From Bradyrhizobium sp. SZCCHNS1050 (GTDB taxonomy: Bacteria > Pseudomonadota > Alphaproteobacteria > Rhizobiales > Xanthobacteraceae): a stretch of 64,000 nucleotides of DNA. The notes beneath the pieces were generated by a model. It did no database searches, was not told the DNA's origin, and saw nothing but the letters and a program-made list of their open reading frames with translations. Made by a program: the position numbers and the translations under genes. Shown here piece after piece: positions 5,923 through 24,963 of this stretch. The stretch covers positions 3,599,501-3,663,500 of the forward strand of contig NZ_JAUETR010000001.1 of assembly GCF_032484785.1 (NCBI RefSeq). Direction: 5' to 3'. Position 1 is the first letter of the stretch. Each line of letters opens with the position of its first letter.

Positions 5923-5961
5923 AGGATCAGCGGACCTCCGCAGCCGAGCAATCGCGAGACA

Positions 5962-6243
5962 ATGCCATCCAAGCTGGATCTCATCAGAGCTCTTCTGCTG
6001 TCCGAGTGGGACCCGATCGGTGTTTCGGGCTGCGAGGGCGCCGAAGACGAATATGACCGCTACGCTCTGCAGGTCTTCAGCATGCTTGACGATGGTGCCG
6101 ATGCCGAGTCGATCGCGAACTATCTCACCGAAGTCGTCACCGACAGAATGTCACTTCCGGGTCGTCCTGAAGCGGATCGCCTGATCGCGGCCAGGGCAGT
6201 CATGATCCATCAAAGCCAAGCCGCCGGCGACGACGGCGGATAG
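5962..6243 (+). CDS. Small conserved-looking hypothetical protein
   Basis: A 93-aa acidic soluble protein with no signal peptide or membrane segment. It contains a WDPIG motif near residue 16, then EDEYDRYALQVFSML and an amphipathic helical C-terminal half. The pattern 'LLL.EWDPIGV...DEYD.Y' recalls small DUF1871-like proteins, but I am not certain of the family. It starts 39 bases after yejF on the same strand and could be read through from that operon. No function is proposed. The codon pattern (mostly G/C at third positions) supports a real gene. Confidence 0.6.
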   Translation: MPSKLDLIRALLLSEWDPIGVSGCEGAEDEYDRYALQVFSMLDDGADAESIANYLTEVVTDRMSLPGRPEADRLIAARAVMIHQSQAAGDDGG

Positions 6244-6249
6244 GTGTGA

Positions 6250-6378
6250 TGATTTGCCCGACGGGTCGTGTCTGCGAAAGCCCGTCCAGCCCCTCCTGAA
6301 AAAATATTTCTGTTTCTTATTTTCGGAAGTCGTGCGTGCTCCGCCCCGTCCTGCCCACGAGAGGGACGTACGCGTCGT
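6250..6378 (+). repeat. Interspersed repeat A, truncated copy 1
   Basis: This stretch, beginning TGATTTGCCCGACGGG and including an A/T-rich core (AAAAAATATTTCTG) and the block GAGGGACGTACGCGTCGTCA, is about 80% identical by eye to the first 130 bases of the longer repeat at 11778-12220. It also matches the inverted copy at 59254-59682. It stops exactly where a fragment of tadC begins, so this copy lacks the structured 3' part of the other two. It has no coding potential of its own; ORFs across it are repeat translations. Confidence 0.85.
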
Positions 6379-6446
6379 CAGCGATTGCCCGAGCGGGGTG
6401 CCGTAGCGCTCCGGTTGCTGGAGCGCGAGGCAGACCGACTTCACGC
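6379..6446 (-). pseudogene. 68-bp fragment of tadC next to repeat A
   Basis: The 68 bases match tadC bases 17221-17288 at 67 of 68 positions and lie in the same orientation. They encode roughly tadC residues 248-270 (the VCLALQQ-ERYGTPLGQSL segment, with Ser changed to Pro). Neither side of the fragment resembles tadC, so this is a displaced piece of coding sequence and not a domain of a local gene. It is joined directly to truncated repeat A. The near-perfect identity suggests recent duplication or strong sequence conservation between donor and copy. Confidence 0.85.
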
Positions 6447-6547
6447 GAGGCGCAACGCCGCGCCATCGTCGCGAAGCTCGCTGCACCATTTCGAGCTCGA
6501 TCAGCGAGCTCGCCTGCAGCGCTCAAATCCCCATAGAGCCTGCCGCG

Positions 6548-6662
6548 CCAGTCCTGCCCACCATGCACGGTGTCCTCCCTTGGAGGCTTTCGGACGCCGG
6601 CCGCCCGAATATGCCGCGCCGTCAATCGTGCTGCCGGCATCCGAAACCCTTCACAGCAGCGG
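6548..6662 (+). repeat. Interspersed repeat B, copy 1
   Basis: This 115-bp block (begins CCAGTCCTGCCCACCATGC, ends TTCACAGCAGCGG) matches 11542-11656 at about 94% (7 differences, no gaps) in the same orientation. The two copies bracket the three-gene minus-strand unit at 6725-11331. The reverse strand gives an arginine-rich open frame (KGFRMPAARLTARHIRAAG-like), which I take to be a chance translation of a repeat. The bases between the tadC fragment and this repeat (6447-6547) have no recognisable content. Confidence 0.88.
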
Positions 6663-6724
6663 ACTCGCGCGCTGCACAAATCGAGACCTCGGGCGTCGAT
6701 GCATGTCTTCGCGATCGGAGCGTA

Positions 6725-7531
6725 CTACTGGCGAGCCTGCTGAATTCTGGCCTTCAGCGTGGCAAGTCCGACCGCGCCGACGATGACATTGCCGCCGATG
6801 ACATAGCTCGGCGTCCCGTTCAATCCCAATTTCTGCGCAAGATTGCCGCTCTCATCGAGGCTTTGGCGCACCTCCAGGCTGTCCATGTCCTTTTCAAGCT
6901 GAGCAACGTCGAGACCGATCGTCTGCGCGATGGCCAACGCGCGCGCCTTGTCGGCGGGTCCGCTGCTTTGGAGCAGCCGCTGATGAAAGTCGAGGTATTT
7001 CGCGCCCGTCGGGTCTTGCATGCGTACCGCTACCGCGACGCGCGCCGCCTCCAGCGAGCCGGGGCCGAGGATCGGAAATTCCTTGAGCACGATCTTGAGC
7101 TTGGGGTCGCTCTTCAACAATTCGAGTATCTCGCCGAGCGCGCGCTTGCAGTAGCCGCAGCTGTAATCGAAGAACTCGACCAGGGTGACATCACCCAGCG
7201 GGTTGCCGAGCGTGACCTGGTGCGCGGACGCGAACAAGGCCGGCGCATTTTGCTTGACCAGTGCGGTCTTGTCGGAGCCGGGCGCTGCCGCCGGCATCGC
7301 GGCTTGCCGCTTCTTGATCAGGTCGGAGATGGCCTGTTGCACGGCTTCGGGGTGCTTGGCGAGGTAGTCCTTCACGACCTGCTCGATTTCTTCGGGATGG
7401 GTCGCTATGTAGTCCTTGACGATCGCCTCGATGTCGCTGCGCGAACTCTCCGCTCGGCCGGGCTGCACGCAAAGCAAAGACAGCGTGAAGACGGCAGCCG
7501 CCGTGGCAACGCTACGGATCAAATTGGTCAT
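6725..7531 (-). CDS. DsbA-like periplasmic thiol-disulfide oxidoreductase
   Basis: A 268-aa exported thioredoxin-fold protein. A signal peptide (LIRSVATAAAVFTLSLLC, cleavage after GRA) is followed by a charged helical stretch, about residues 30-75, with two HPE[EA] repeats (YIATHPEEIEQVV, YLAKHPEAVQQAI). This resembles the N-terminal oligomerisation region of ScsC-type proteins. The DsbA domain follows with the active site FFDYSCGYCKRA and the cis-proline loop NGTPSYVIGG. The mature protein has only the two active-site cysteines. It is the last gene of a minus-strand unit whose two upstream genes encode very cysteine-rich exported proteins. The likely job, by inference, is to form or reshuffle disulfides in those partners. 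The gap to the upstream gene is 87 bases. Confidence 0.88.
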   Translation of the reverse strand: MTNLIRSVATAAAVFTLSLLCVQPGRAESSRSDIEAIVKDYIATHPEEIEQVVKDYLAKHPEAVQQAISDLIKKRQAAMPAAAPGSDKTALVKQNAPALFASAHQVTLGNPLGDVTLVEFFDYSCGYCKRALGEILELLKSDPKLKIVLKEFPILGPGSLEAARVAVAVRMQDPTGAKYLDFHQRLLQSSGPADKARALAIAQTIGLDVAQLEKDMDSLEVRQSLDESGNLAQKLGLNGTPSYVIGGNVIVGAVGLATLKARIQQARQ

Positions 7532-7618
7532 CGGTCATCCTCCATATGGCTGCCGACTTCCGCAGTTGGCGTGCAGTAATGATTTGCGAATTCGTGTCCT
7601 CGTGCATCGCTGCTTCCT

Positions 7619-10150
7619 TCATCGTCGCGGCATCATCATGCCGGGCGGGGGGGCCGGTCTGACCCCCGGCATGCGCGGCGCAAATCGGCCGGTCGGCCGG
7701 CAGCGCGCGCCAAGCGGCCCCGGAATCCAACCGGGGGGGCAGACGATCGGGCGACCGACATCCGGCGCCCGCCGGTCCCGCGTCACCCCCGGCTTGCGTG
7801 CCACGCACACGCCGTCGGCATTGCGCCGCTCACCAGGTTGGCACGTCGTCGGCAGCTTCGGAATCACGGGGACGACCGTGGTGGACTTCTTCTCGATCGT
7901 CTTGGAGCACTGGCTTCGATCCTTTGGGTCGACCGGGGCCGCGCAGCACTCGCCGCTCGTCGTCAGATTCGCGGACGCGCAGCATTTGCTATTCGCAGTC
8001 GGCACGAAGCCCGAGGCGCAACACTGTGAAAGTCTCGGCAGCCAGTGCAGCGGTATGCATAGCGTGCCGTCGGGGCTCGCAATCTGGCCGGCCGGGCAGC
8101 ACTGTCCCTTCGACGTCGCCTGGCTCTTGAGACAGCACTTGCCGGCGATCTTCACATAGCCGGTTGCACAGCAGCTGGGGCATTTCCAGTCCGGGATTTT
8201 CGGCTTCAACGGATCGCACACGCCGTTCACCACGGTCGTCCCGCAGCAAAGTTGTTGGCCAATCGGGCCGGAATAGATCTGGCTGTTCTCGCAGCATTCA
8301 TTGTTCGGGCCGATCGCCGTCTGGTTGACGCCGCACATCGGCTTGCCGATATCAGTCGACGGATTGTTGTTCGAACAGATGCCCCCCGGCTGCAGGTCTT
8401 TGGGCGAGCAGCATTGGCCATTGACCAGAACATTGGGCGGGGCGCAGCTCGACGCGCAGCTCTTGGTCTTGATGATCCAGATCTGATTGGGCGGACAAAC
8501 CGATCCGTCCGAACCGCAGACATGGGTCTTGCAGGTCTGCAGACCCGGCGGCTTCGGCATGCCGGCGGGAGGCGGCGCGCCGGCTGGACGCGGCGCCAGC
8601 CGTATCCGTGCGGCTTCCCTTGTACACGCGCGCAAGATGGCGATATCTCCCATGTGCCCGCGAGCTGATAGATCGGGCGGCGCGTCGGCATAGTCGATGA
8701 AGTAGCTGAGCAGCGGTGGCTCATCGCCGCGGCGGATGCGCCAGATCGGATTCCCCTGCAGTCCGTCGATCGCAAGCGCGTCGTTCTGGCCGAGTTGAGC
8801 CACGAGCTTGGGATCGGTGGCGTTGCGCAATTGTTCGCCGGTGGTCCAGACGAAGCCGCCGCAGGAGGCCGGATTCATGGTCCCGCCCATGTCGTAGCTG
8901 TAGCCGATCGCGACGCCGCCATTGCCATTGCGGAAACGTTCGGGGAATCCCACCGCATATTCGTCCGGCAAGGGCTGCCAGATCGGCTGCCTGATCTCAG
9001 TGACACCGATCAGCGTATAGCGCAGCACGCGGCCGATCGACGGCGCGGACAATGCCTCGAAATCCTGCGCCCCGGTCGGAGCCGGCCGCTCGGCCAAAAA
9101 CATCCGTCCCTCATCGTCGAAAGTAATCCTGGAGATCTCGGTGGGACCGGCGGCGGGCGGTGCGACGACTTCGATTCTGGCGTCCGCACCGAACGAGCCG
9201 TTCGCGTTGAGCCCGACCGACCACACCCGCAAGCCCTCGGCGACCGCGTAGTAGAGCCGGCCGTCGCGAATGGCGAGGCCGAACACTCGCCGAACCGGTG
9301 CCGCGTAGCCCCAGGTCTCGGGCTGCGCGCTGTCGAATTGAGGACTCGTAATATCGACGCCTGGCCCGGCTGGCGCCGGCGCCGTTGGAAGTTCCGCGGC
9401 TGCGTTGCCGGCGACGCCGTGATCATAGACACCGAGGTCGACGCCGTTCGGGCCGAAGCGATGGATCAGCCCGGTCTCACGGTCGGCGACGAACAGAGAC
9501 TTGGTCGCCGGATCATAGGCCAATCCCCCGAGTGCCGCGCCCGAATTGGCCTTGTCGCCCGTGGTGACATTCGCGAACAGCGTCACCGCGCCGGTGGCGC
9601 CATTGATCTTCCAGATCGATCCCGGACCGCCGCCCGGCCCCCATTGTGCCGGCATGAAGGTCGCGCCGCTAGTCCCGAGCCTGACATGTTGCGGTCGACC
9701 TTCAGGTCCCGGCGCGACGATCGAGAGACCATAGGCGGATGTCGCCGCGACGTAAATGTTGGCGGGGGAACTGTCGTCCAGAGCGACGCCAAACACCTGC
9801 CCGATCGACTTCGCGCTGACAGTGAACGGCTTCGGCGCACCGACCAATTGCGCCTGGGGCGGACCGCCCATGCGTCTTAGATCGACGATGCGCAGCGACG
9901 GCCCTCCAGGATCGATGATGGTCCGAACGTCGGGATCCTGACCGGGCTCGATCTCGAACGGGCGAATAGCCCCGGAGAATCCGGTGACTGCAGCATCGCC
10001 GGGGGTGTAAACGCCGGGCGGCGTTTGCGCCGACGCGGGCCCCCCGAGTGCGAGAGGCAGGATCAGCAGCCAGGCGAGGCGCCGCATCGCACGGACGGCG
10101 GCTGTCAAGGACGTCTGTCGGCCGAGCTCAATCATGTCCGTCCGCCTCAT
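7619..10150 (-). CDS. Exported beta-propeller-like protein with cysteine-rich C-terminus
   Basis: An 843-aa protein that I cannot assign to a named family. The ATG at 10150 overlaps the upstream stop (ATGA), so I chose it; a second ATG at 10135 is possible. A signal peptide (LAWLLILPLALGGPASA) precedes about 490 residues with repeated beta-propeller-like strands (GLAYDPATKSLFVADR, VFGLAIRDGRLYYAV, ITFDDEGRMFLAER) reminiscent of NHL/SMP-30 blades. From about residue 537 the protein changes character. The last 307 residues hold 33 cysteines including nine CC pairs (for example NGQCC, AGKCC, GQCC, SGECC), and it ends in a Pro/Arg-rich tail. It is probably surface-exposed or secreted. The cysteine content and the DsbA gene downstream suggest disulfide-dependent folding. 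No catalytic motif is seen. Confidence 0.75.
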   Translation of the reverse strand: MRRTDMIELGRQTSLTAAVRAMRRLAWLLILPLALGGPASAQTPPGVYTPGDAAVTGFSGAIRPFEIEPGQDPDVRTIIDPGGPSLRIVDLRRMGGPPQAQLVGAPKPFTVSAKSIGQVFGVALDDSSPANIYVAATSAYGLSIVAPGPEGRPQHVRLGTSGATFMPAQWGPGGGPGSIWKINGATGAVTLFANVTTGDKANSGAALGGLAYDPATKSLFVADRETGLIHRFGPNGVDLGVYDHGVAGNAAAELPTAPAPAGPGVDITSPQFDSAQPETWGYAAPVRRVFGLAIRDGRLYYAVAEGLRVWSVGLNANGSFGADARIEVVAPPAAGPTEISRITFDDEGRMFLAERPAPTGAQDFEALSAPSIGRVLRYTLIGVTEIRQPIWQPLPDEYAVGFPERFRNGNGGVAIGYSYDMGGTMNPASCGGFVWTTGEQLRNATDPKLVAQLGQNDALAIDGLQGNPIWRIRRGDEPPLLSYFIDYADAPPDLSARGHMGDIAILRACTREAARIRLAPRPAGAPPPAGMPKPPGLQTCKTHVCGSDGSVCPPNQIWIIKTKSCASSCAPPNVLVNGQCCSPKDLQPGGICSNNNPSTDIGKPMCGVNQTAIGPNNECCENSQIYSGPIGQQLCCGTTVVNGVCDPLKPKIPDWKCPSCCATGYVKIAGKCCLKSQATSKGQCCPAGQIASPDGTLCIPLHWLPRLSQCCASGFVPTANSKCCASANLTTSGECCAAPVDPKDRSQCSKTIEKKSTTVVPVIPKLPTTCQPGERRNADGVCVARKPGVTRDRRAPDVGRPIVCPPGWIPGPLGARCRPTGRFAPRMPGVRPAPPPGMMMPRR

Positions 10151-11331
10151 TTCGGCTGCTTGGGCCGCGGCTCGCAGGAGCCGGTCTTGACGTTGGGCAC
10201 GGTGTCCGGCGGGCAACATTCTCCACAATTGGTCATCTGCGCGGGATTGCAGCAGCTTCCGTCAAAGGCCATTCCCTGGCTCTTGTCGGAGCAGGGCGTG
10301 ACACAGGGGCTGTTCTTGTCGCCGCCGAGTCTTGTCTGTCCGGCCGGGCAGGCCGCGGGCGGACACATGCCGTAGGGCGCAAAGCCGAAGACCGCCACCT
10401 GGTTGGTGTCGTCGCACAGGCACTCGGAGAGCCCGTTCGACTTCAACACGCCGGGATGGGTGTCCTTCGGGCAATCGCACGAGAACACGTACTTGCTATC
10501 GCCGGATCCGGGGTTGGGGACCTGTTGCCAGTGCGGCACCATCGGTTTCGGACAGGTGCAGTAACTGCTCCCTGTGTGGCAGGCGTAGGCGCCGGGATCC
10601 GTGACCACCAGCGTCCCGTCACCGGTTTCCACCATGCCCACGCCATATCGATCGTATTGATCCTGATAGACGCCTTTGCTGGAAGGGCTGAAGATCGAGC
10701 CGGGACCGCCGATGCCTTGACATTCCGGGTACCTCCACCACTCCATGTAAGGTACTTTTTCGCACGTCGCGTTGATCGCGGCGCATGTGGCTTGAGCAGG
10801 CGGAAGGACCTCGCAATCGCCGCAGGACTGCATGCCAAGCTCTTCCTGCCCCCAGCACAACACCTCCTGAAGACATGAGCCGATTTCGGAACCCAATCCA
10901 ACGGTGCTCTGCTCGCTCTTGCAGGCGCATTTCACGACGTCTGCGGCCGCGCCAATGGCTGCGAGCTCCTTGGAAAGATCGCCGAGAACATTTTCTGCGA
11001 TCGCGTTGCCAAAGATCGTGTTCAGCTTGCTGACGACTTGGTCGGCGTCGCCCTGCGCCTCTGCGCAGAATTGATTGACCAGGGCTTGCCCTTTCCCCGT
11101 GTCCGACCCTGACAAGGCGACGCCGCTGAGTGCTGCGGTCAGTGCAATCGCTGCGTAGCGGCTTGCGTCATTCTCATAGACCGACTTGCACACATATGCG
11201 GCGGACAGCGTCCCGATAAAGGCATCCGCGATGTCTTCTGGACTGCAGCCCGCTCGCGCCGGCGACGCTAGTAGAATCATCGCGGCGACGATGGCCGCTC
11301 CTTGAACCCGCCAGCGTCCTGCGCACACCAT
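10147..11331 (-). CDS. Exported cysteine-rich protein of unknown function
   Basis: A 394-aa protein, first gene of the three-gene minus-strand unit. The N-terminus is a signal peptide (GAAIVAAMILLASPARA, then GC). The start could be the ATG at 11331 or the later ATG at 11280; the first gives a conventional n-region. The mature chain contains 29 cysteines. The first half is helical and Ala-rich. The second half has spaced C-x-C and CC motifs (YCTCPKP, FSCDCPKD, ECLCDD, GSCCNPAQ, CGECCPPD) like those at the end of the next gene's product. The TGA overlaps the next ATG by four bases, so the two proteins are translationally coupled and probably work together. I do not recognise the family. Residue -3 before GC is Arg, so it is not a lipoprotein. 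Confidence 0.75.
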   Translation of the reverse strand: MVCAGRWRVQGAAIVAAMILLASPARAGCSPEDIADAFIGTLSAAYVCKSVYENDASRYAAIALTAALSGVALSGSDTGKGQALVNQFCAEAQGDADQVVSKLNTIFGNAIAENVLGDLSKELAAIGAAADVVKCACKSEQSTVGLGSEIGSCLQEVLCWGQEELGMQSCGDCEVLPPAQATCAAINATCEKVPYMEWWRYPECQGIGGPGSIFSPSSKGVYQDQYDRYGVGMVETGDGTLVVTDPGAYACHTGSSYCTCPKPMVPHWQQVPNPGSGDSKYVFSCDCPKDTHPGVLKSNGLSECLCDDTNQVAVFGFAPYGMCPPAACPAGQTRLGGDKNSPCVTPCSDKSQGMAFDGSCCNPAQMTNCGECCPPDTVPNVKTGSCEPRPKQPK

Positions 11332-11541
11332 GGTCCGCCCCTCTGTCGCATCAACGTGGGCGTTCTTCTCAATTCCAGCCTTGCGCTAGATCAACAGAGG
11401 CGATGGCAATCGCGCCATCAACCGACTGCGCCAACCGGCGCCATCAGGATCGACACCTCATCACCGCACGACCGCCATTCTGCAAAGCTGCTCGTCGTGC
11501 CCGCCGCTCATCGACCGGCCACGGTGGAAAGCGCCTCCGCA

Positions 11542-11656
11542 CCAGTCCTGCCCACCATGCGCGGCTTCCTCCCTTGGAAGCTTTCGGACGCCGGCCGCCC
11601 GAACATGCCGCGCCGTCAATCGTGCGGCCGGCATCCGAAACCCTTCACAGAAGCGG
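11542..11656 (+). repeat. Interspersed repeat B, copy 2
   Basis: A 115-bp block that differs from 6548-6662 at about seven positions, in the same orientation. It lies about 210 bases upstream of the first cysteine-rich gene, on the far side of the island from copy 1. The bases between the gene start and this repeat (11332-11541) and between it and repeat A (11657-11777) show no gene. The promoter of the cysteine-rich/DsbA operon should lie in the first of these, but I see no clear -35/-10 pair. Confidence 0.88.
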
Positions 11657-11777
11657 CAATCGTCTGCCGGGCCACGAATCGGTCACTATACTCTCGAGAT
11701 CGGGCGAATTACCAAAAGCGCCGACAGTCAGAATCTCAGCTCTCTTGGGCTGCGGCGAGAACCCACGCGATTGCGGG

Positions 11778-12220
11778 TGATTTGGCCGACGGGCGCGGTC
11801 CGCGAACGCCTGTCCAGTCCTCTCGCGAAAAATATTCATCTTTCTTTTTTTCGGAAATCGTGCATACTCCGCCCCGTCCTGCCCCACGAGAGGGACGTAC
11901 GCGTCGTCACGGACGTCGGGTGCGGGATGCGATGGCCGCGATGATGTTGCAGTGTGCATGTGCGCACCGACGAACGGCGTCATGCGGACGACGAAGTCGT
12001 GTGGTCCTGGCGCCCCGATGCTGGCGTCAAGGTCGCGGGAGCCGATGAGGCCTGCGGCCGACAGGGGCAAGAAAGCCGGTCCCTGGGGAGATCACGAAGT
12101 AAGTCGCAAAACATCGCGCAGGGAAGGCCGGATGTTCGGCCCGTACCTGTGGTGACTACCGCGTGCTTGTTGCACGCAACCACGGGTGCGGTCGGCACCC
12201 GGCCTTCCCTGCGCCCTCTC
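11778..12220 (+). repeat. Interspersed repeat A, full-length copy with structured 3' end
   Basis: About 440 bp, matching the reverse complement of 59254-59682 over its whole length and 6250-6378 over its first 130 bases. It has an A/T core near its 5' end (GAAAAATATTCATC) and a highly structured 3' end. A perfect 16-bp inverted repeat (12116-12131 with 12199-12214) encloses two small hairpins. These are GCGTGC-ttgtt-GCACGC (12161-12177) and GGGTGC-ggtcg-GCACCC (12184-12200). No transposase is present, so it looks like a non-autonomous element or a structured RNA/DNA repeat. Open frames within it are not supported as genes. Confidence 0.85.
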
Positions 12221-12353
12221 ATGTTGCCGAGGGCGGATGATTGCAGCAGGACTCGGACCGATGCGGCCGCGAGAATGCGGATGCTTGCCCTGCTGTTTGG
12301 CGCGGCCTGTTGCTGTTTGATAGGTATATCGGACTCTTGCGCCGCTCTCTCCG

Positions 12354-12430
12354 CGTCATTGCGAGCGCAGCGAAACAATCCAGAGTCGTGGGCGGGCCTC
12401 TGGATTGCTTCGCTTACGATCGCAATGACG
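12354..12430. repeat. Palindromic repeat (CGTCATTGCGAGCG family)
   Basis: An imperfect palindrome of 77 bp. The left arm CGTCATTGCGAGCGCAGCGA pairs with the right arm ending CGATCGCAATGACG, and CAATCCAGAG pairs with CTCTGGATTG. It sits between repeat A and the NlpC/P60 gene. Such palindromes are typical dispersed extragenic repeats of bradyrhizobia and related genera (general knowledge). It could act as a transcriptional stop for the convergent side, but there is no T tract. Confidence 0.8.
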
Positions 12431-12490
12431 GAGGAGGGAGCCTGCGTCTCAAAACCTCATCGGGAGGACGCGCCAGCGCGATGAGGCGAG

Positions 12491-17055: not shown

Positions 17056-18030
17056 CTACTGCATGGCCGCGACCTTGATGCCGGTCGGTCCCAGAATGAC
17101 CACGAACAGCACCGGCAGGAAGAACAGGATCATCGGCACCGTCAGCTTCGGCGGCAGCGCGGCCGCCTTCTTCTCGGCCTCGTTCATGCGCATGTCGCGA
17201 TTTTCCTGCGCCATCACGCGCAGCGATTGCCCGAGCGGGGTGCCGTAGCGCTCCGATTGCTGGAGCGCGAGGCAGACCGACTTCACGCCTTCGAGGCCGG
17301 TGCGGCGGGCGAGGTTCTCGTAGGCCACCTTGCGGTCCTGCAGGTAGGAGAGCTCCGCGGTGGTCAGCGTGAACTCCTCCGACAGCGCGATCGACTGGCT
17401 CGAGATCTCGATCGCCACGCGGCGGAAGGCGGCCTCGATCGACATGCCGGATTCGATGCAGATCAGCAGCAGGTCCAGCGCGTCGGGAAACGCGCGCTTG
17501 ATCGACAGCTGCCGCTTGGAAATCGCGTTGCTGAGGAACAGCATCGGAGCCTGCAGGCCGAGATAGGCCATGCCGACGCAGATGCCGATCTTGACCGGCA
17601 TCGATTTCTGCAGATGCGCGATCACGAAGACGTACAGCACGGAACCGACGAACAGAACCAGCGGCGTCACCAGGCGCGCGAACAGGAAGGTGATATAGGG
17701 CGCCTGGCCGCGGTAGCCCGCCATGATGAGCTTCTCGCGGGCCGCCTCCTGAGCGAGCCATTTGGTGAGGTTGAAATCCTCCACCACACGAGAGATGAGC
17801 TGCTTCGGCGTCTGCCGCAACGAGACCTTCTCGCCGGCGTTCAACCGCTCGCGCTCGCGCTGCTTGATCCGCTCGCGTTCGCTGGCGACCGCCTTCATGC
17901 GCTTGTTCAGGTTCTCGCCTGCGAACAGCGGCATGATCAGCGTATAGACGGTGGCCGTCGCCGCGATGGCGGCGAAGAACATCGTCATGAAGTGCGGGTC
18001 GTGCAGCTTGGAGACCAGAATGTCGACCAT
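17056..18030 (-). CDS. tadC: Flp pilus inner-membrane platform protein TadC
   Basis: A 324-aa type II secretion F-domain protein. It has an N-terminal membrane helix, charged cytoplasmic linkers (RERIKQRERERL), a paired helix region and a C-terminal hydrophobic helix (MILFFLPVLFVVILGPTGI). The GspF-like core is seen in ALDLLLICIESGMSIEAAFRR. With TadB it forms the inner-membrane platform on which CpaF drives pilin assembly. It is the last gene of the minus-strand pilus operon, 8 bases after tadB. A 68-bp copy of its codons 248-270 lies at 6379-6446. Confidence 0.93.
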   Translation of the reverse strand: MVDILVSKLHDPHFMTMFFAAIAATATVYTLIMPLFAGENLNKRMKAVASERERIKQRERERLNAGEKVSLRQTPKQLISRVVEDFNLTKWLAQEAAREKLIMAGYRGQAPYITFLFARLVTPLVLFVGSVLYVFVIAHLQKSMPVKIGICVGMAYLGLQAPMLFLSNAISKRQLSIKRAFPDALDLLLICIESGMSIEAAFRRVAIEISSQSIALSEEFTLTTAELSYLQDRKVAYENLARRTGLEGVKSVCLALQQSERYGTPLGQSLRVMAQENRDMRMNEAEKKAAALPPKLTVPMILFFLPVLFVVILGPTGIKVAAMQ

Positions 18031-18038
18031 GGTCCACC

Positions 18039-19013
18039 TCAGAAATCGAAATTGATCATCTTCTTCATGACCAGGATGCCCATCGACATCCAGATCACGC
18101 AGCCGACCAGCATCAGCTGGCCGGTCGGATGGGTCCAGAGCAACGAGATGTAGTCGGGCGTGCTCAGATAGACCAGCAGCATCACGATCGGTGGCAGCGA
18201 TCCGATGATGCCCGCGGACGCCTTGGCCTCCATCGACATCGCCTGGATCTTCTCGCTCATCTTCTTGCGGTCGCGCAGCACCTTCGAGAGGTTGCCGAGC
18301 GCCTCGGAGAGATTGCCGCCCGACTTCTGCTGGATCGCGATGACGATGCCGAAGAAGTTGGCTTCGGGAAGCGGCATCCGTTCATAGAGCCGCGCACAAG
18401 CCTCGCCGAGCGGCATGCCGATCGCCTGGGTCTCGATGATCCCGAGGAACTCGCTGCGCAAAGGCTCCGGCGCGTCGGCGGCGACGACCTTGATGGATTC
18501 GAACAGCGGCAGGCCTGCCTTGATGCCGCGCACGATCACGTCGACGGCGTCCGGCAATGCCGCCAGGAATTTCTTCTCGCGCCGCTTCTTGAGGTAGCCG
18601 AGGATCCAACGCGGCAGACCGAGACCGGCGGCGAAGCCGAGCCCGAGCGCGCCGAGCGGGCCGCCACCGGCGAAGAAGGCAACGGCGCAGACGACGAAGC
18701 CGAGGACACCGGAAACGATCCAGAATTTCTGCACGGTCCAGTCGAGTCCGGCCTGCGAAATCCGCATGTTCAGCGGGACTTTACTCTGCTTCTGGGCCTT
18801 CGCCTCGAGATCCTTCAGCGAGGACTCGACCTGCTCGCGGCGCGAGCGTTGGCTGCGTTCGGCCTGTCGGACCACCGGCTCGGACTTGGCGACGGTGCTG
18901 CGCCGCTGCTCGGCCTTCCGCTCACCCGACAGCAGGGGATAAAGGAACACCCAGGCGATGCCGCCGATCGCGGTGGCGGCGAGGAAGGCAAGGGCGAGAG
19001 CCTGAAGCTTCAT
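18039..19013 (-). CDS. tadB: Flp pilus inner-membrane platform protein TadB
   Basis: A 324-aa protein of the same F-domain family as TadC. It opens with a membrane helix (ALALAFLAATAIGGIAWVFLY) and a basic linker rich in Arg/Gln. Two central helices (FWIVSGVLGFVVCAVAFFAGG) and the platform motif VDVIVRGIKAGLPLFESIKVVA follow, and a terminal hydrophobic segment ends the chain. It starts 11 bases after cpaF. TadB and TadC probably form a heteromeric platform; the paired genes of equal length are typical of tad loci. Confidence 0.93.
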   Translation of the reverse strand: MKLQALALAFLAATAIGGIAWVFLYPLLSGERKAEQRRSTVAKSEPVVRQAERSQRSRREQVESSLKDLEAKAQKQSKVPLNMRISQAGLDWTVQKFWIVSGVLGFVVCAVAFFAGGGPLGALGLGFAAGLGLPRWILGYLKKRREKKFLAALPDAVDVIVRGIKAGLPLFESIKVVAADAPEPLRSEFLGIIETQAIGMPLGEACARLYERMPLPEANFFGIVIAIQQKSGGNLSEALGNLSKVLRDRKKMSEKIQAMSMEAKASAGIIGSLPPIVMLLVYLSTPDYISLLWTHPTGQLMLVGCVIWMSMGILVMKKMINFDF

Positions 19014-19024
19014 GGGGTCTCTCC

Positions 19025-20488
19025 TCAGTCCTTGCTCGCAACTTCGGCGGCATCGAGTGCAGCCGCAAGCCGCTTCTCTTCGCCGTAGTAGCGCGCACGT
19101 TCCCAGAACCGCGGCCGGCCGATTCCGGTCGAGCGGTGGCGCCCGATGATCTTGCCGTTCGCGTCCTCGCCGATCATGTCGTAGAGGAAGATGTCCTGGG
19201 TGATGATGGTGTCGCCTTCCATGCCCATCACCTCGGTGATGTGCGTGATGCGGCGGGAGCCGTCGCGCAGTCGCGCCGCCTGGACGATGACGTCGATCGA
19301 GGCGCAGATCATCTCACGGATGGTCCGCGACGGCAGCGAGAAGCCGCCCATCGTGATCATGGATTCGCAGCGGGACAACGCTTCGCGCGGGTTGTTGGCG
19401 TGCAGCGTGCCCATCGATCCGTCGTGACCGGTGTTCATGGCCTGCAGCAGGTCGAAGGCCTCGGGTCCGCGGACCTCGCCGACGATGATGCGCTCGGGCC
19501 GCATACGCAGGCAGTTTCTCACCAGCTCGCGCATCGTCACCTGGCCTTCGCCCTCGATGTTGGGCGGCCGGGTTTCGAGGCGCACCACATGTGGCTGCTG
19601 CAGTTGGAGCTCGGCGGCGTCCTCGCAGGTGATGACGCGCTCGTCGTGATCGATATAATTGGTCAGACAGTTCAGCAGCGTGGTCTTGCCCGAACCGGTA
19701 CCGCCGGAGATCAGCACGTTGCAGCGGACGCGGCCGATGATCTGCAGGATCTCCGCGCCCTCCGGCGAGATCGCGCCGAACTTGACGAGCTGATCGAGCG
19801 TCAGCTTGTCCTTCTTGAACTTACGAATGGTGAGCGCGGGGCCGTCGATCGCCAGCGGCGGAACGATGGCGTTGACGCGCGAGCCGTCGGCGAGACGCGC
19901 GTCGCAGATCGGTGACGATTCGTCGACGCGGCGGCCGACCTGGCTGACGATGCGCTGGCAGATGTTCAGGAGCTGTTGGTTGTCGCGGAACCGGATGCCC
20001 GTGCGCTGGATCTTGCCGTTGACTTCGATAAAGACCGTACCGGCGCCGTTGACCATGATGTCAGCGATGTCGTCACGCGACAGCAGCGGCTCCAGCGGGC
20101 CATAGCCGAGCACGTCGTTGCAGATATCGTCGAGCAGCTCTTCCTGCTCGGCGATCGACATCACGATATTCTTGATCGCGATGATCTCGTTGACGATGTC
20201 GCGGATTTCCTCGCGCGCGGATTCGCCGTCGAGCTTGGCCAGCTGAGCGAGATCGATCGCCTCGATCAGCGCCCCGAAGATCGTCGCCTTGACCTGATAG
20301 TAACTGTCCGAACGCCGGGCCTCGACAACCGGTGGTGGCGGCGGCGGAGCCTGCCGGGTCGGAGCCAGAGGTGGCGACGGCACGGCCGGAGACGCCGCGC
20401 GTGGTGCAGCCGGCGCCGGCTCGGGCGCCGGCGCGGCCGGCCTGAGGGCCCTGGTATCGTTGTCCAATCCGCTACGCTTACCAAACAC
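19025..20488 (-). CDS. cpaF: Flp pilus assembly ATPase CpaF/TadA
   Basis: A 487-aa secretion ATPase of the VirB11/GspE superfamily. A Pro/Ala-rich N-terminus (about 55 residues) leads to the conserved core. Walker A is [15 protein letters not shown], the Asp box is [15 protein letters not shown], Walker B is [16 protein letters not shown], and the His box is [14 protein letters not shown]. It powers extension of the pilus from the cytoplasmic face of the TadB/TadC platform. It sits 21 bases after cpaE in the same operon. The sequence appears complete. Confidence 0.96.
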
Positions 20489-20509
20489 GACTTAGAACTC
20501 CACGCGTGC

Positions 20510-21778
20510 TTACTTCGCCCTCAGCTTGTCCAGCAGAGGCGACAGGAAGGAGCCTTTCGGCTTCTTTGTCTCGCTGCGGCCGGTGAGCCGCTGCGCGATC
20601 TGGAGAAACATCTCCGTCGTCCGATGGCTGGGAGACATCTCCGCAATCATCTGGCCGTTGTTGGCGGCCGCGCCGAAGATCTGCGGCTCGAACGGGATCG
20701 TTGCGATCGGCGGGCTTTCGATCGCCTTGGCGAACTCGCTCGCATTGATCTCGGGCCGCTTGGGAACGCCGACCTGGTTCAAGCAGTAGAGCGGCATGCG
20801 ATCGTTCGGCCGGGCGGCCTTGAGGAGATCGAACATGTTCTTGGTGTTGCGCAGCGAGGCGAGATCCGGCGCCGCGACGATCAGGATATCATCCGCGGAG
20901 ATCAGCGCCCGCTTGGTCCAGCCTGCCCATTGATGCGGAACATCGAGCACGATGCATGGCATCGAGGCCCGCAGCGTGTCGAAGACCGCATCGAATGCCT
21001 CGGCGCCGAAATCGTAGACCCGGTCGAGCGTCGCAGGCGCGGCCAGCAGGCTCAGATGATCGGTGCATTTCGACAACAGCCGGTCCATGAAGGCGATGTC
21101 GATCCGGTCCGGTGAGAAGACGGCGTCCGCGATGCCCTGCGCGGGATCCTGGTTGTAGTCGAGGCCGGCGGTGCCGAACGCCAAATCGAGATCTGCCACC
21201 ACGGAGTCCATCGACAGGTCGCGCGCGATCGCCCAGGCAATGTTATGGGCCAGGGTCGAGGCTCCGACGCCGCCCTTGGCGCCGACGACGGCAACGATGC
21301 GCCCGACGGCCTTGGCTTCCGGCGCGGAGAATAGGTTGCAGATCGAGCGGACGACGTCGATCGGCGTCACTGGCGACAGCACATAGTCGCTGACGCCGCG
21401 CCGAACGAGCTCGCGATACAGCGTGACGTCGTTGACGCGGCCGATCACGACGACGCGCGTGCCCGGGTCGCAAACCGTCGCGAGCTGATCCAGGCCGGCC
21501 AGGATGTCGGTGCGTGCATCCGTCTCCAGAATGATGACGTTCGGGGTCGGGGCAGACCGGTAGGCCTCGATCGCCGCCGCCATGCCACCCATCTGAACCT
21601 TCAGATGGGCCTTGCCGAGGCGCCGGTCCTCACCGGCGGCCTGGACCGTCGCGGCGGTTTCCACCGTCTCACAGAACGCCTGCACGGACACGCGCGGCGC
21701 GGGCGCGATGTGATCGTCGGCCGGCGGCGGCACGACGTCAGGCTGCTCCTCTTGGGTCTGTCGGGCGTAGCTGATCAT
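20510..21778 (-). CDS. cpaE: Pilus localisation ATPase CpaE/TadZ
   Basis: A 422-aa protein with an N-terminal receiver-like domain (about residues 60-150; PNVIILETDARTDI, VSDYVLSPVTPIDVV) and a C-terminal ParA/MinD-like P-loop domain. The deviant Walker A is VVGAKGGVGASTLAHNIAWA. CpaE/TadZ directs the pilus apparatus to a cell pole. Its ATG overlaps the cpaD stop by four bases. The P-loop keeps the Lys-Gly-Gly-Val-Gly pattern but the catalytic Asp regions are less conserved, as is usual for this family. Confidence 0.93.
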   Translation of the reverse strand: MISYARQTQEEQPDVVPPPADDHIAPAPRVSVQAFCETVETAATVQAAGEDRRLGKAHLKVQMGGMAAAIEAYRSAPTPNVIILETDARTDILAGLDQLATVCDPGTRVVVIGRVNDVTLYRELVRRGVSDYVLSPVTPIDVVRSICNLFSAPEAKAVGRIVAVVGAKGGVGASTLAHNIAWAIARDLSMDSVVADLDLAFGTAGLDYNQDPAQGIADAVFSPDRIDIAFMDRLLSKCTDHLSLLAAPATLDRVYDFGAEAFDAVFDTLRASMPCIVLDVPHQWAGWTKRALISADDILIVAAPDLASLRNTKNMFDLLKAARPNDRMPLYCLNQVGVPKRPEINASEFAKAIESPPIATIPFEPQIFGAAANNGQMIAEMSPSHRTTEMFLQIAQRLTGRSETKKPKGSFLSPLLDKLRAK

Positions 21779-22515
21779 TTGCCTGTGTCGCTGAGTTTGG
21801 CCTTGTCGGCCTCTGGATACGTGATCGCGGTTGATTGTCCCTTGCGATATTTGTCGAACAATGCCGTGCGCCGGGTGGTATAGGACGGCGTTTCGGATCG
21901 CGGCTGCACGAGATCCGACGGGTTGGCGACCATTGCCGCCATGTTGCGCTGGTAGGCGCAGCCGTAGTTCCAGTCAGGCTTGTTGTCGAACCAGTTCTTG
22001 TTCTTGATCGACGGCCCGAGGTCATCCGGCCAGATCCCGCAGGGCCCCACCGTGGCCGACATTTTTGGGTAGCTCAGCCGGATCGCGGCCATCTGGCGCG
22101 GGTCCTTCGGCTGATAGTTGCGTACGGTGATGCCGTGCGGCGGGACGCCGGCGGCGGCCAGCAGGGAGTGGATCTCCCGCATCGAGTCGGCGGCCGCCCG
22201 TGCGTTGGGGGTGCCGCTCGGCACGTCGGCGCTGATCGCGCCCGTGCCTTGGCGAATCCAGCTCTGGGCCAGTCCCATCACGTCGGCGCGCTGCTCGGCC
22301 GTCAGGCCGCCACGACCCTGGCCGACGAAGACCACCAGGGAGTCCGGGGCCTCCTGGATCGCGATCGGGTGGCGCAGCCGGTAGTCGTCGGGGATGCTCG
22401 CCGTGGTGGCGGCGTCTCTGGTGTAGTTGCAGGCGCCGAGCAGGGCTGCGGCTCCGGCGAGCGCTGCGGCAAGGGGCAGGCGTCGGTATCGGGCGGGGCT
22501 GGATGTGGTGGTCAT
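21775..22515 (-). CDS. cpaD: Pilus assembly lipoprotein CpaD
   Basis: A 246-aa outer-membrane lipoprotein. I chose the ATG at 22515 (MTTTSSPARYRR), because the chain then opens with a lipoprotein signal (AAALAGAAALLGAC, Cys about residue 27); the longer frame from 22659 overlaps cpaC. The mature part contains DDYRLRHPIAIQEAP and the central NYGCAYQRNMAAMVANPSDL block, both hallmarks of CpaD. It probably stabilises the CpaC secretin. It sits 22 bases after cpaC and overlaps cpaE (ATGA). Confidence 0.92.
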   Translation of the reverse strand: MTTTSSPARYRRLPLAAALAGAAALLGACNYTRDAATTASIPDDYRLRHPIAIQEAPDSLVVFVGQGRGGLTAEQRADVMGLAQSWIRQGTGAISADVPSGTPNARAAADSMREIHSLLAAAGVPPHGITVRNYQPKDPRQMAAIRLSYPKMSATVGPCGIWPDDLGPSIKNKNWFDNKPDWNYGCAYQRNMAAMVANPSDLVQPRSETPSYTTRRTALFDKYRKGQSTAITYPEADKAKLSDTGK

Positions 22516-22537
22516 CGTTGCAGGTCCTTGTCCCGGC

Positions 22538-24040
22538 TCAGTCCGTGATGAAGCCATAGGTGCCGCGATAGTTGCGTCCGGGTTCGACCCGGCCGGGTAC
22601 GCCGTAGATGCGGTTGATGCTACCCAGGAGATCGGCCTGGGGGTCGGACGCGGCCGCAAAGCCGTCGTCTGGGCGGGAGAGATCCTTCTGTGCCACGGCG
22701 CGGACGACGAACGGCGTCACCAGAACCATCAGTTCGGTCTGGTTGTTGACGTAGTCGCGGCTGCGGAACAGCGCGCCGAGGACCGGCAGCTGCATCAGGC
22801 CCGGCATGCCGCTGATCGCCTGCTTGGTCTGCTGCTGGATCAGGCCGGCCATCGCCATGGCGCCGCCGGAGGGAATTTCGAGCGTGGTCTCGGCGCGCCG
22901 GGTCTTGATCGATGGAACCGTCAACGAGTTGACCGTCGTCGAGCTGACGGCTTGCGACAGCGTGATCGAGTTCTCGTTTGAGAGCTCCGAGACCTCGGTC
23001 ATCACCCGCATCGAGATCCGGCCCTCGCTGAGCACGACGGGCGTGAAGTTGAGCGAGATGCCGAACTTCTTGAAGCTGATCTGCGTCGTACAGACATGGG
23101 TCGTCGGATCACAGGAGTAACCGGCGGGAACCGGAAACTCGCCGCCGGCGATGAAGGTCGCGGACTCGCCCGAGATGGCGGTCAGATTGGGTTCGGCGAG
23201 CGTACGGATCACGCCCGCGTTCTCCATGGCGCGCAGTGTCGCCTGCACCGTCGGGGTCGCCCCGCCCAACGCTGCGGTCACGGCGTTGTTGGAGACGAGA
23301 TTGCTACCGTAGGCGGTGAACGGATTGGAGTTCGCGAATTTGACGACAGCAGTTCCGTAGTTGAGCTGGCCGGAGAGATCGATGCCAAGCTGCTTGACGA
23401 CCGAGCGCTGCACCTCGGCGACCGTCACCTTCAGCATCACCTGGTCCCGGCCGCGCACGGTGATCGAGTTGACGACCTTGTCGGCGCCGCCGGCGAGCCG
23501 GGCGGCCAGTTCGCCGGCCTGCTGGGCTTCGATCTGGCTCGACGCCGAGCCGGTCAGCACGATGCTGTCGGCGAGGCCCTCGATCTGGATATCGGCATTC
23601 GGCAGCAACTGCTTCAGCGCCGCCCGGGCGCCGTTCAGGTCGCGCTTGACCGCGATGTCGTAGGCCGCGATCTGCTGGCCCTGCGCGTCGAAGAAGACGA
23701 TATTCGTCTGACCGATCGCCGCACCAATGATGTAGGCGCGCTGAGAGGAGCGCACGACGGCATTCGCGATCTTCGGATCAGCGACAAGAACGTCCTTGAT
23801 GTCGCGCGGCAGATCGATGACGACGGACTTGCCGATGCCGAGCGCAAGGAAACGTGCATTGATCTGGCCGTCCGCGGCGGCGGCTGCAGTCGCCGGGCGA
23901 TAGTCTGCCGCGATCACCGGCGCGATCGCCGGATTGAGGGTCAGCGCAGCGGCGGCCGAAAACGACAGCGCGCGGACCAGCAGGGTCCGCATCTTACGCT
24001 GATTTTCGCTGCAGGTCATCTGGGTGGTCCTCTTGCTCAC
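22538..24040 (-). CDS. cpaC: Pilus secretin CpaC/RcpA
   Basis: A 500-aa outer-membrane secretin. A signal peptide (LSFSAAAALTLNPAIAPVIA) precedes the pilus N-domain (SVVIDLPRDIKDVLVADPKI), a BON-like segment (QIEGLADSIVLTGSASS) and the secretin domain. The latter has GISLNFTPVVLSEGRISMRV and VPSIKTRRAETTLEIPSGGAM with the terminal LPVLGALFRSRDYVNNQTEL motif. It forms the ring through which the pilus exits. Its ATG overlaps the cpaB stop by four bases. The window also has a second protein carrying only the pilus N-domain (27404-27904). Confidence 0.95.
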   Translation of the reverse strand: MSKRTTQMTCSENQRKMRTLLVRALSFSAAAALTLNPAIAPVIAADYRPATAAAAADGQINARFLALGIGKSVVIDLPRDIKDVLVADPKIANAVVRSSQRAYIIGAAIGQTNIVFFDAQGQQIAAYDIAVKRDLNGARAALKQLLPNADIQIEGLADSIVLTGSASSQIEAQQAGELAARLAGGADKVVNSITVRGRDQVMLKVTVAEVQRSVVKQLGIDLSGQLNYGTAVVKFANSNPFTAYGSNLVSNNAVTAALGGATPTVQATLRAMENAGVIRTLAEPNLTAISGESATFIAGGEFPVPAGYSCDPTTHVCTTQISFKKFGISLNFTPVVLSEGRISMRVMTEVSELSNENSITLSQAVSSTTVNSLTVPSIKTRRAETTLEIPSGGAMAMAGLIQQQTKQAISGMPGLMQLPVLGALFRSRDYVNNQTELMVLVTPFVVRAVAQKDLSRPDDGFAAASDPQADLLGSINRIYGVPGRVEPGRNYRGTYGFITD

Positions 24041-24837
24041 TTCTGCGTCGTCATCGTGCTGGGAATGCCGAAGCGGACGACGGCAACGCTGTCGCTGCGC
24101 TTGCGGCTGGTCTCGTCCGTGCGGCGCTCGGCCACGTTGACGTCGGCGATGCTGCGGAGCGCCAGGGACAGCGTTCCGGTTTGACGGGCACGCGCGAGCG
24201 TCTCGGCCTGTTCCGGCTTCAGCTCCAGCGTGACGGTCTTGCCGACCACCGTGGTCTGGCCGTCCTTTTCCTTGGGGGCCTGATCGATCGCCAGCACACG
24301 GATGTTCGACAGGATGATATCGGAGCTGACGACGTCGCCCGCGTTGGGCTGATCCGGATTGCGTTCGCGCTTGGACAGGATCACGTCGACGCGGTCGTTC
24401 GGCAGGATGAAGCCGCCGGCGCCGGTCTCCGGAGAAATCTCGGTGGAAACGGCGCGCATGCCGGCCGGCAGGATCGCGGCCATGAAGCCCGAGCCGTCGG
24501 CCTTGACGAGCTTTTGTTCGCGGATGGGCTCGCCGGCAATGAACGGCGCCCGCGCGATCGTGCCGGTTATCTGCGTCTGTCCTTCAGGCCGCTCGTTGCG
24601 GCGGATGAAGCTGGCACTAGCCGTGGCCGCCGGCCAGCTCTGCCACTGCAGATCTTCGGGCTTGAGGGATTGGCCGAGGGCGATGTCGCCCTTGGCGACG
24701 AGAACGTCGACGGTCGGCATCTGCGGCGCGGGCGCGGCGACTTGAGCCGGCCGGTCGTCGGACCCGCTCGCGAGATATGCGGCCACGCCGCCAGCGCCTA
24801 CAGCGATGGTCAGAACCACAATGCGTGCGGTATTCAT
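24037..24837 (-). CDS. cpaB: Pilus assembly protein CpaB/RcpC
   Basis: A 266-aa periplasmic protein with one N-terminal membrane helix (ARIVVLTIAVGAGGVAAYLA). An SAF-like domain follows (VDVLVAKGDIALGQSLKPED, then GFILPNDRVDVILSK). CpaB-type proteins with this fold are thought to bind peptidoglycan or help assemble the secretin. I prefer ATG 24837, which has GGAAAGTGAAG upstream; ATG 24855 is an in-frame alternative six codons earlier. It overlaps cpaC and is separated from cpaA by about 126 bases, where a promoter could lie. Confidence 0.93.
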   Translation of the reverse strand: MNTARIVVLTIAVGAGGVAAYLASGSDDRPAQVAAPAPQMPTVDVLVAKGDIALGQSLKPEDLQWQSWPAATASASFIRRNERPEGQTQITGTIARAPFIAGEPIREQKLVKADGSGFMAAILPAGMRAVSTEISPETGAGGFILPNDRVDVILSKRERNPDQPNAGDVVSSDIILSNIRVLAIDQAPKEKDGQTTVVGKTVTLELKPEQAETLARARQTGTLSLALRSIADVNVAERRTDETSRKRSDSVAVVRFGIPSTMTTQK

Positions 24838-24963
24838 ACGCTTCACTTTCCACATGACGCCGCGACGTTTCCGCCGCCGTGATGGGAGTTGAGCAGTTAT
24901 TCGTCAAAGCATGGTTAATGAGGCGTATCTAAATCGCCTTAACACCGCGTTGACACGGTGTGT

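Follow-up and report, generated by a model that had tools for sequence, protein, structure and literature searches.

YWTD beta-propellers are found beside cysteine-rich neighbours in LDLR, LRP6 and nidogen, and some ScsC proteins have an oligomeric disulfide isomerase activity. To our knowledge, the substrates of ScsC-type proteins are mostly unknown, and disulfide richness of the degree described here is rare among the exported proteins of Gram-negative bacteria. In our study, a stretch of 64,000 nucleotides from Bradyrhizobium sp. SZCCHNS1050 (assembly GCF_032484785.1, contig NZ_JAUETR010000001.1, positions 3,599,501 to 3,663,500; hereafter the window) was found to contain a unit of three genes, encoding two cysteine-rich proteins, P1 and P2, and a DsbA/ScsC/Com1-like enzyme, P3 (Table 1). 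The cysteine counts of P1 and of full-length P2 proteins were odd with few exceptions, which suggests that the chains are joined by a disulfide.

The head of P2 was predicted to form a six-bladed propeller. It appears to share with LDLR, LRP6 and nidogen a likeness of fold and not membership, as the identity was 8-15%, no Pfam family matched, P2 is bacterial and its tail has other cysteine patterns. P3 contained the DSBA and ScsC_N domains and the CGYC motif of the ScsC/Com1/DsbA-like oxidoreductases, and differed from them in that its gene is part of an operon-like unit that also encodes two cysteine-rich proteins. Also close to P2 were P2-family proteins encoded without P1, whose tails contain DUF11, DUF5979, VWA or repeats. 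They had the same propeller head, 35-59% identical to that of the window (alignment A4), but differed in the absence of P1, in the absence of any DsbA found nearby and in their mostly even cysteine counts.

Table 1. Features of the three-gene unit and of its surroundings, with the loci that share its gene order
Feature	Positions	Strand	Description
P1 gene	10147..11331	minus	394 amino acids, signal peptide (by eye), cysteine-rich
P2 gene	7619..10150	minus	843 amino acids, signal peptide (by eye), propeller head and cysteine-rich tail
P3 gene (DsbA/ScsC/Com1-like)	6725..7531	minus	268 amino acids, thioredoxin-fold, signal peptide (by eye), CGYC, ScsC_N segment
P2 six-bladed YWTD/NHL-like beta-propeller	8615..10018	minus	residues 45-512, predicted model; invariant Cys 430 and 509
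P2 cysteine-rich modular tail	7622..8542	minus	residues 537-843, 33 Cys
Last conserved P2 tail module	7907..8023	minus	residues 710-748, CC-CC-CC-C, seven invariant Cys
Stretch missing in relatives	5923..12490	unstranded	flanking ABC-ATPase and NlpC/P60 genes adjoin elsewhere
Left direct repeat	6535..6662	unstranded	128 bp, 92% identical to right copy
Right direct repeat	11530..11656	unstranded	partner of left copy
Loci with P1 followed by P2			window, L054-L065, L121, L122, L123, L127, L132, L175, L176
Loci with DsbA behind P2			window, L054, L057, L059, L061, L063, L064, L065, L121, L122, L123, L127, L132, L176

A preliminary description, made from the letters of the window, had reported these three genes, and its account of them was correct: the exported-looking P1 with 29 mature cysteines, coupled to P2 by an ATGA overlap (the P2 start codon is the ATG at 10150); P2 with a propeller-like part and a 307-residue tail containing nine CC pairs; and a DsbA-like gene with the CGYC active site after a gap of 87 bases. 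Signal peptides were called by eye from AxA sites. P1 contained 30 cysteines in total, with a helical N-terminal half and a cysteine-rich beta C-terminal half, and mature P2 contained 35, two in the propeller and the rest in the tail. The share of cysteine was 7.9% in mature P1 and 10.7% in the P2 tail; 21 other proteins of the window, picked by us for comparison, had 0.84%. In the alignment of 36 P1 sequences, 25 of the 29 cysteine columns were invariant compared with 9 of the 338 other columns; in P2 residues 537-760 (45 sequences) the corresponding numbers were 23 of 29 and 7 of 195. This invariance and the high cysteine share argue that the richness in cysteine is not due to chance.

The preliminary description could not place either cysteine-rich protein in a known family, which agrees with our searches. 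Neither P1 nor P2 (P0002) matched any Pfam or NCBIfam family, a Pfam search of the 36 P1 sequences was also negative, no Pfam propeller family matched the P2 head, and P1 gave no usable fold match to solved structures. Among the 45 P2 sequences (alignment A1) one marginal match to a propeller repeat was found (SBBP, E 0.0075). The database search returned 56 homologues of P1 and 726 of P2 (best 120 listed); the names shown were hypothetical protein or equally uninformative. Among the matches listed, the closest named homologues of the unit's proteins were from Bradyrhizobium and 97% identical.

Parity of the cysteine counts

The number of cysteines in P2, counted from the conserved start of the propeller, was odd in 112 of 112 proteins of at least 800 amino acids, and took nine values from 35 to 51. 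The set consisted of 111 of the best 120 listed homologues and the window's own P2; rows shorter than 800 amino acids or without the N-terminal motif were excluded, and the short P0095 and P0123 are even. When the columns were shuffled (2,000 per-column shuffles), 56 +/- 5 odd proteins were expected, with a maximum of 74. The counts of other residues (tryptophan, histidine, methionine, tyrosine, phenylalanine, asparagine, glutamine and aspartate) were odd in 38 to 63 of the 112 proteins. Sister pairs differed in cysteine number in 16 of 36 cases, by 2, 4, 6, 10 or 12, and the variable cysteine columns were found to be gained and lost in pairs.

The mature P1 proteins were odd in 53 of 55 database rows, counted after exclusion of P0043 and P0057, which are without an end. 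At the loci, P1 was odd in all 22 distinct genes scored (for instance 31 cysteines in L055 and 33 in both L063 and L065 among the aligned mature proteins), and P2 was odd in all 19 closed, distinct rows. Matches of 60 bits or less were excluded from the locus scoring of P1, namely the tail-only L083 and L084 and the divergent copy of L175, which has 33 cysteines by hand count. Two loci, L122 (B. nitroreducens TSA1) and L123 (a Bradyrhizobiaceae metagenome-assembled genome), contained a tandem pair of P1 genes ahead of P2, with 33 cysteines each.

An odd total together with paired change of the variable cysteines is the pattern expected if disulfides take up every cysteine except one. Each chain thus probably has one unpaired cysteine. 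As the two chains are adjacent and appear to be exported, these cysteines suggest a disulfide between P1 and P2, which would be the simplest use of both. An attempt to locate the unpaired residue did not resolve a unique cysteine. The seven-cysteine tail module of P2 offers a hint and may tentatively be its seat; it was present in 20 of 21 P1-bearing rows (the exception, L062, is truncated at a contig end), in 106 of the 112 database proteins and in none of the 46 P1-less rows.

In P2-family proteins with neither P1 nor F4 (described below) as neighbour, the count ranged from 8 to 80 and was even in 32 of the 34 loci that were closed and distinct. The even pattern was first seen on eight loci, and the 19 loci fetched later (L178-L196) were all even. 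Three genomes (G973, G1054 and G174) carried both P1-bearing and P1-less kinds and kept the rule. Duplicates (L177, L200) and open frames (L062, L074, L075) were excluded from the locus counts of P2-family parity, with and without P1, and four partial places (G921, two of G995, and contig 36 of G054) lay outside the parity test. In a tree of 31 heads, the 11 P1-bearing ones formed one clade (100/99), so the switch from even to odd was probably one event. It is the maintenance of parity, apparently through dozens of changes in cysteine number, that repeats, and not the switch.

A second class of propeller proteins (L076-L082, L086 and L197) was followed downstream by F4, a conserved protein of about 380 amino acids with a signal peptide, few cysteines and, in the one member scanned, no Pfam match. 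Several tails of this class contained SPxHxR or SVKH-like repeats. Giant P2-family relatives of about 1,700-2,000 amino acids with the same propeller were found in L070, L072 and L186, the first two with DUF11, DUF5979 or VWA.

Gene order and the linked enzyme

The P1-bearing loci were drawn from 198 family genomes, from a scan of the genomes of 84,980 species (17 loci) and from a second sample of the family, 391 genomes, which were searched with the propeller. The scan used one short peptide pattern, so that part of the P1 family was seen. An intact P1 had P2 directly behind it at all 20 loci whose contigs permit the check, with duplicates merged; L124, which ends about 200 bases past P1, and a contig-end P1 fragment in G184 lie outside this count. 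Other loci lie among different neighbour genes.

P3 exceeded the curated cut-offs for DSBA (94.9 bits, cut-off 25.6) and for ScsC_N, PF18312 (36.4 bits, cut-off 25.8), and its active-site cysteines are residues 125 and 128. Its best PDB match by sequence was 3gyk, a 27 kDa outer membrane protein, followed by DsbA-like and copper-resistance entries. A DsbA gene was found behind P2 in 14 of the 19 P1-P2 loci with an uncut P2, in several genera, so the synteny proposed as a check in the preliminary description recurs in most of the loci where it can be seen. In L065 the DsbA match was split across two frames. At 45 distinct P1-less P2-family loci, the fetched sequence gave no DsbA-like match; seven of these loci have less than 1 kb behind P2 (L069, L074, L075, L085, L187, L189 and L196).

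In four of four genomes searched whose unit has no nearby DsbA, a DsbA paralogue 58-61% identical was present elsewhere. In a tree of 35 rows the linked DsbAs clustered apart from the unlinked paralogue, with 4 changes against 11 in shuffles; the 14 rows taken as linked include L102, which precedes a P1 fragment instead of following a P2. A single origin of the linked genes was not established by this tree. A DsbA fragment at a contig start (L172 1-8000, contig 71 of G114) grouped with the linked DsbAs, and P2 of the same genome runs off another contig end; the unit of G114 may thus also have a DsbA. In the metagenome-assembled genome G184, contig 59 (L173) ends in a P1 fragment that lies behind a DsbA gene; here and in L209 of the same genome, the usual order is reversed, with DsbA directly ahead of a P1 gene or fragment.

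A proposed two-chain protein and its alternatives

We slightly favour the reading that the unit encodes a secreted or surface protein of two disulfide-linked chains together with its own disulfide foldase. P2 would consist of a six-bladed propeller head carried by a rod of small modules rich in cysteine. P1 would be the second chain, likewise cysteine-rich; its last 45 or so residues are similar to one of the P2 modules. In the periplasm, all cysteines except one per chain would pair within the chain, aided by the linked ScsC/DsbA-like enzyme, a natural helper in view of its ScsC-type N-terminal segment and of the some 60 cysteines to be folded. The leftover cysteines of P1 and P2 would then form one interchain disulfide, giving a covalent heterodimer, and the propeller, in the manner of adhesins, would bind a protein or glycan ligand outside the cell. 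Tails with DUF11, DUF5979 or VWA in three of the six P1-less relatives scanned suggest such a surface-binding role. The preliminary description had proposed a disulfide-rich surface or secreted product with its own folding enzyme. Of this, the exported appearance and disulfide richness of both proteins and the recurrent gene order stood, and the dedicated enzyme held in part, as its linkage is not universal. The cysteine parity was not part of that description, and what is likely to be new is the disulfide-linked pair to which this parity points. The fuller claim is put forward more tentatively, with slightly less confidence than the first: a family of bacterial surface proteins in which a propeller-headed cysteine-rod chain is bound by one disulfide to a co-encoded chain, a linked thioredoxin-fold enzyme does the folding and the whole has spread as one mobile unit, and in which cysteine parity by itself shows which proteins have a disulfide partner. 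If true, the unit would be a two-chain system in need of a real disulfide-shuffling enzyme and would provide a natural substrate for an ScsC-type protein, and the rule of odd counts with P1 and even counts where there is no partner would be a cheap sequence test for interchain disulfides in other cysteine-rich families.

Several findings weigh against the proposed pair. Two P1 proteins are even (P0021 with 34 cysteines and P0041 with 32), and two odd counts occur among the partner-less P2-family proteins, in the truncated frame L085 and in L199 with 9 cysteines. Judged on one switch, the change to odd may coincide with P1 by chance. The F4-linked propeller proteins were odd in 8 of 9, yet each of the eight F4 proteins counted has two mature cysteines; matching the parity of F4 to its P2 neighbour does not fit, odd parity need not go with an odd partner, and the F4 class needs another reason. 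DsbA was not found in the stretches of 5 of the 19 uncut P1-P2 loci (L055, L056, L058, L060 and L175; three Rhodopseudomonas, Xanthobacteraceae Astr-EGSB and G1054, the last outside the paralogue search), so that the refuting case named in the preliminary description, homologues occurring without the DsbA gene, is partly borne out. On contig 135 of G184 (L209), a truncated P1-like frame of 183 amino acids lies behind a DsbA fragment and the contig has no P2. No secretion system travelling with the unit was seen in the gene clusters of 33 other loci, the case for adhesion is architectural, and that for export lies in the signal peptides called by eye. Each chain is odd by itself, so that two separate disulfide-linked homodimers, co-encoded because P1 and P2 act in the same place, would fit too, and a homodimer would also fit the F4-linked class. 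We nevertheless consider two homodimers unlikely, because the family without P1 and F4 is mostly even, which indicates that the head-and-tail design does not in general require a homodimer, and because the change to odd coincides with P1.

The propeller could instead belong to a secreted enzyme, a lactonase or phosphotriesterase-like hydrolase of the SMP-30/DFPase type, with the cysteine-rich parts stabilising or anchoring it. The P2 head gave a weak best match to the SMP-30/DFPase/lactonase propellers (E 0.015), including RPA3624, and none of these was significant in sequence; an enzyme appears about as improbable as the homodimers. An exported metal-binding system, with copper or zinc bound at CXC and CC motifs and an ScsC-like gene that serves a copper response, is less probable still. 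The CXC motifs of P1 (135/137, 258/260, 285/287 and 304/306) and the ScsC_N domain, named in Pfam after copper resistance, agree with it, but the paired change of variable cysteines and the strict parity are explained by disulfide bonds and not by metal sites. P1 might also be a lipoprotein, with its first mature cysteine lipid-modified, an even number left for disulfides, and P2 alone odd. The first conserved cysteine of the aligned P1 proteins does lie a few residues past the AxA site, but the three residues ahead of it vary (for example RAG, KPS, TPS, SSS and ADG) and, on inspection by eye, do not agree with the lipobox consensus, and we give this reading as small a chance as metal binding. 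That the unit belongs to a Tad pilus encoded 6 kb away is extremely improbable. Tad-pilus-like genes do lie at 17056-24855 on the strand of the trio (one with a T2SSF domain, the others named by reading), but they had no family in common with 33 other clustered loci (stretches up to 20 kb), where no conserved linkage to Tad genes was found, and none of the nine relatives examined has the trio at this site.

Proposed insertion site and repeats

In the nine Bradyrhizobium genomes read, an ATP-binding cassette (ABC) transporter ATPase gene adjoins the NlpC/P60 gene at the trio-free site, and the NlpC/P60 gene was present in 60 of 60 genomes of the genus searched. The simplest reading is that the trio was inserted as a unit; loss in the other genomes may be the alternative. 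Carriage on plasmids was not supported, since among 72,556 plasmid records nothing matched P1 and the one match to P2, from Ciceribacter, was weak (33% identity over half). The 128-bp flanking repeat had three matches in the whole genome. To the left of the trio, a further segment of 68 bp (6379-6446), which lies between copies of the flanking repeats, was 98.5% identical to 17221-17288 in the tadC-like gene.
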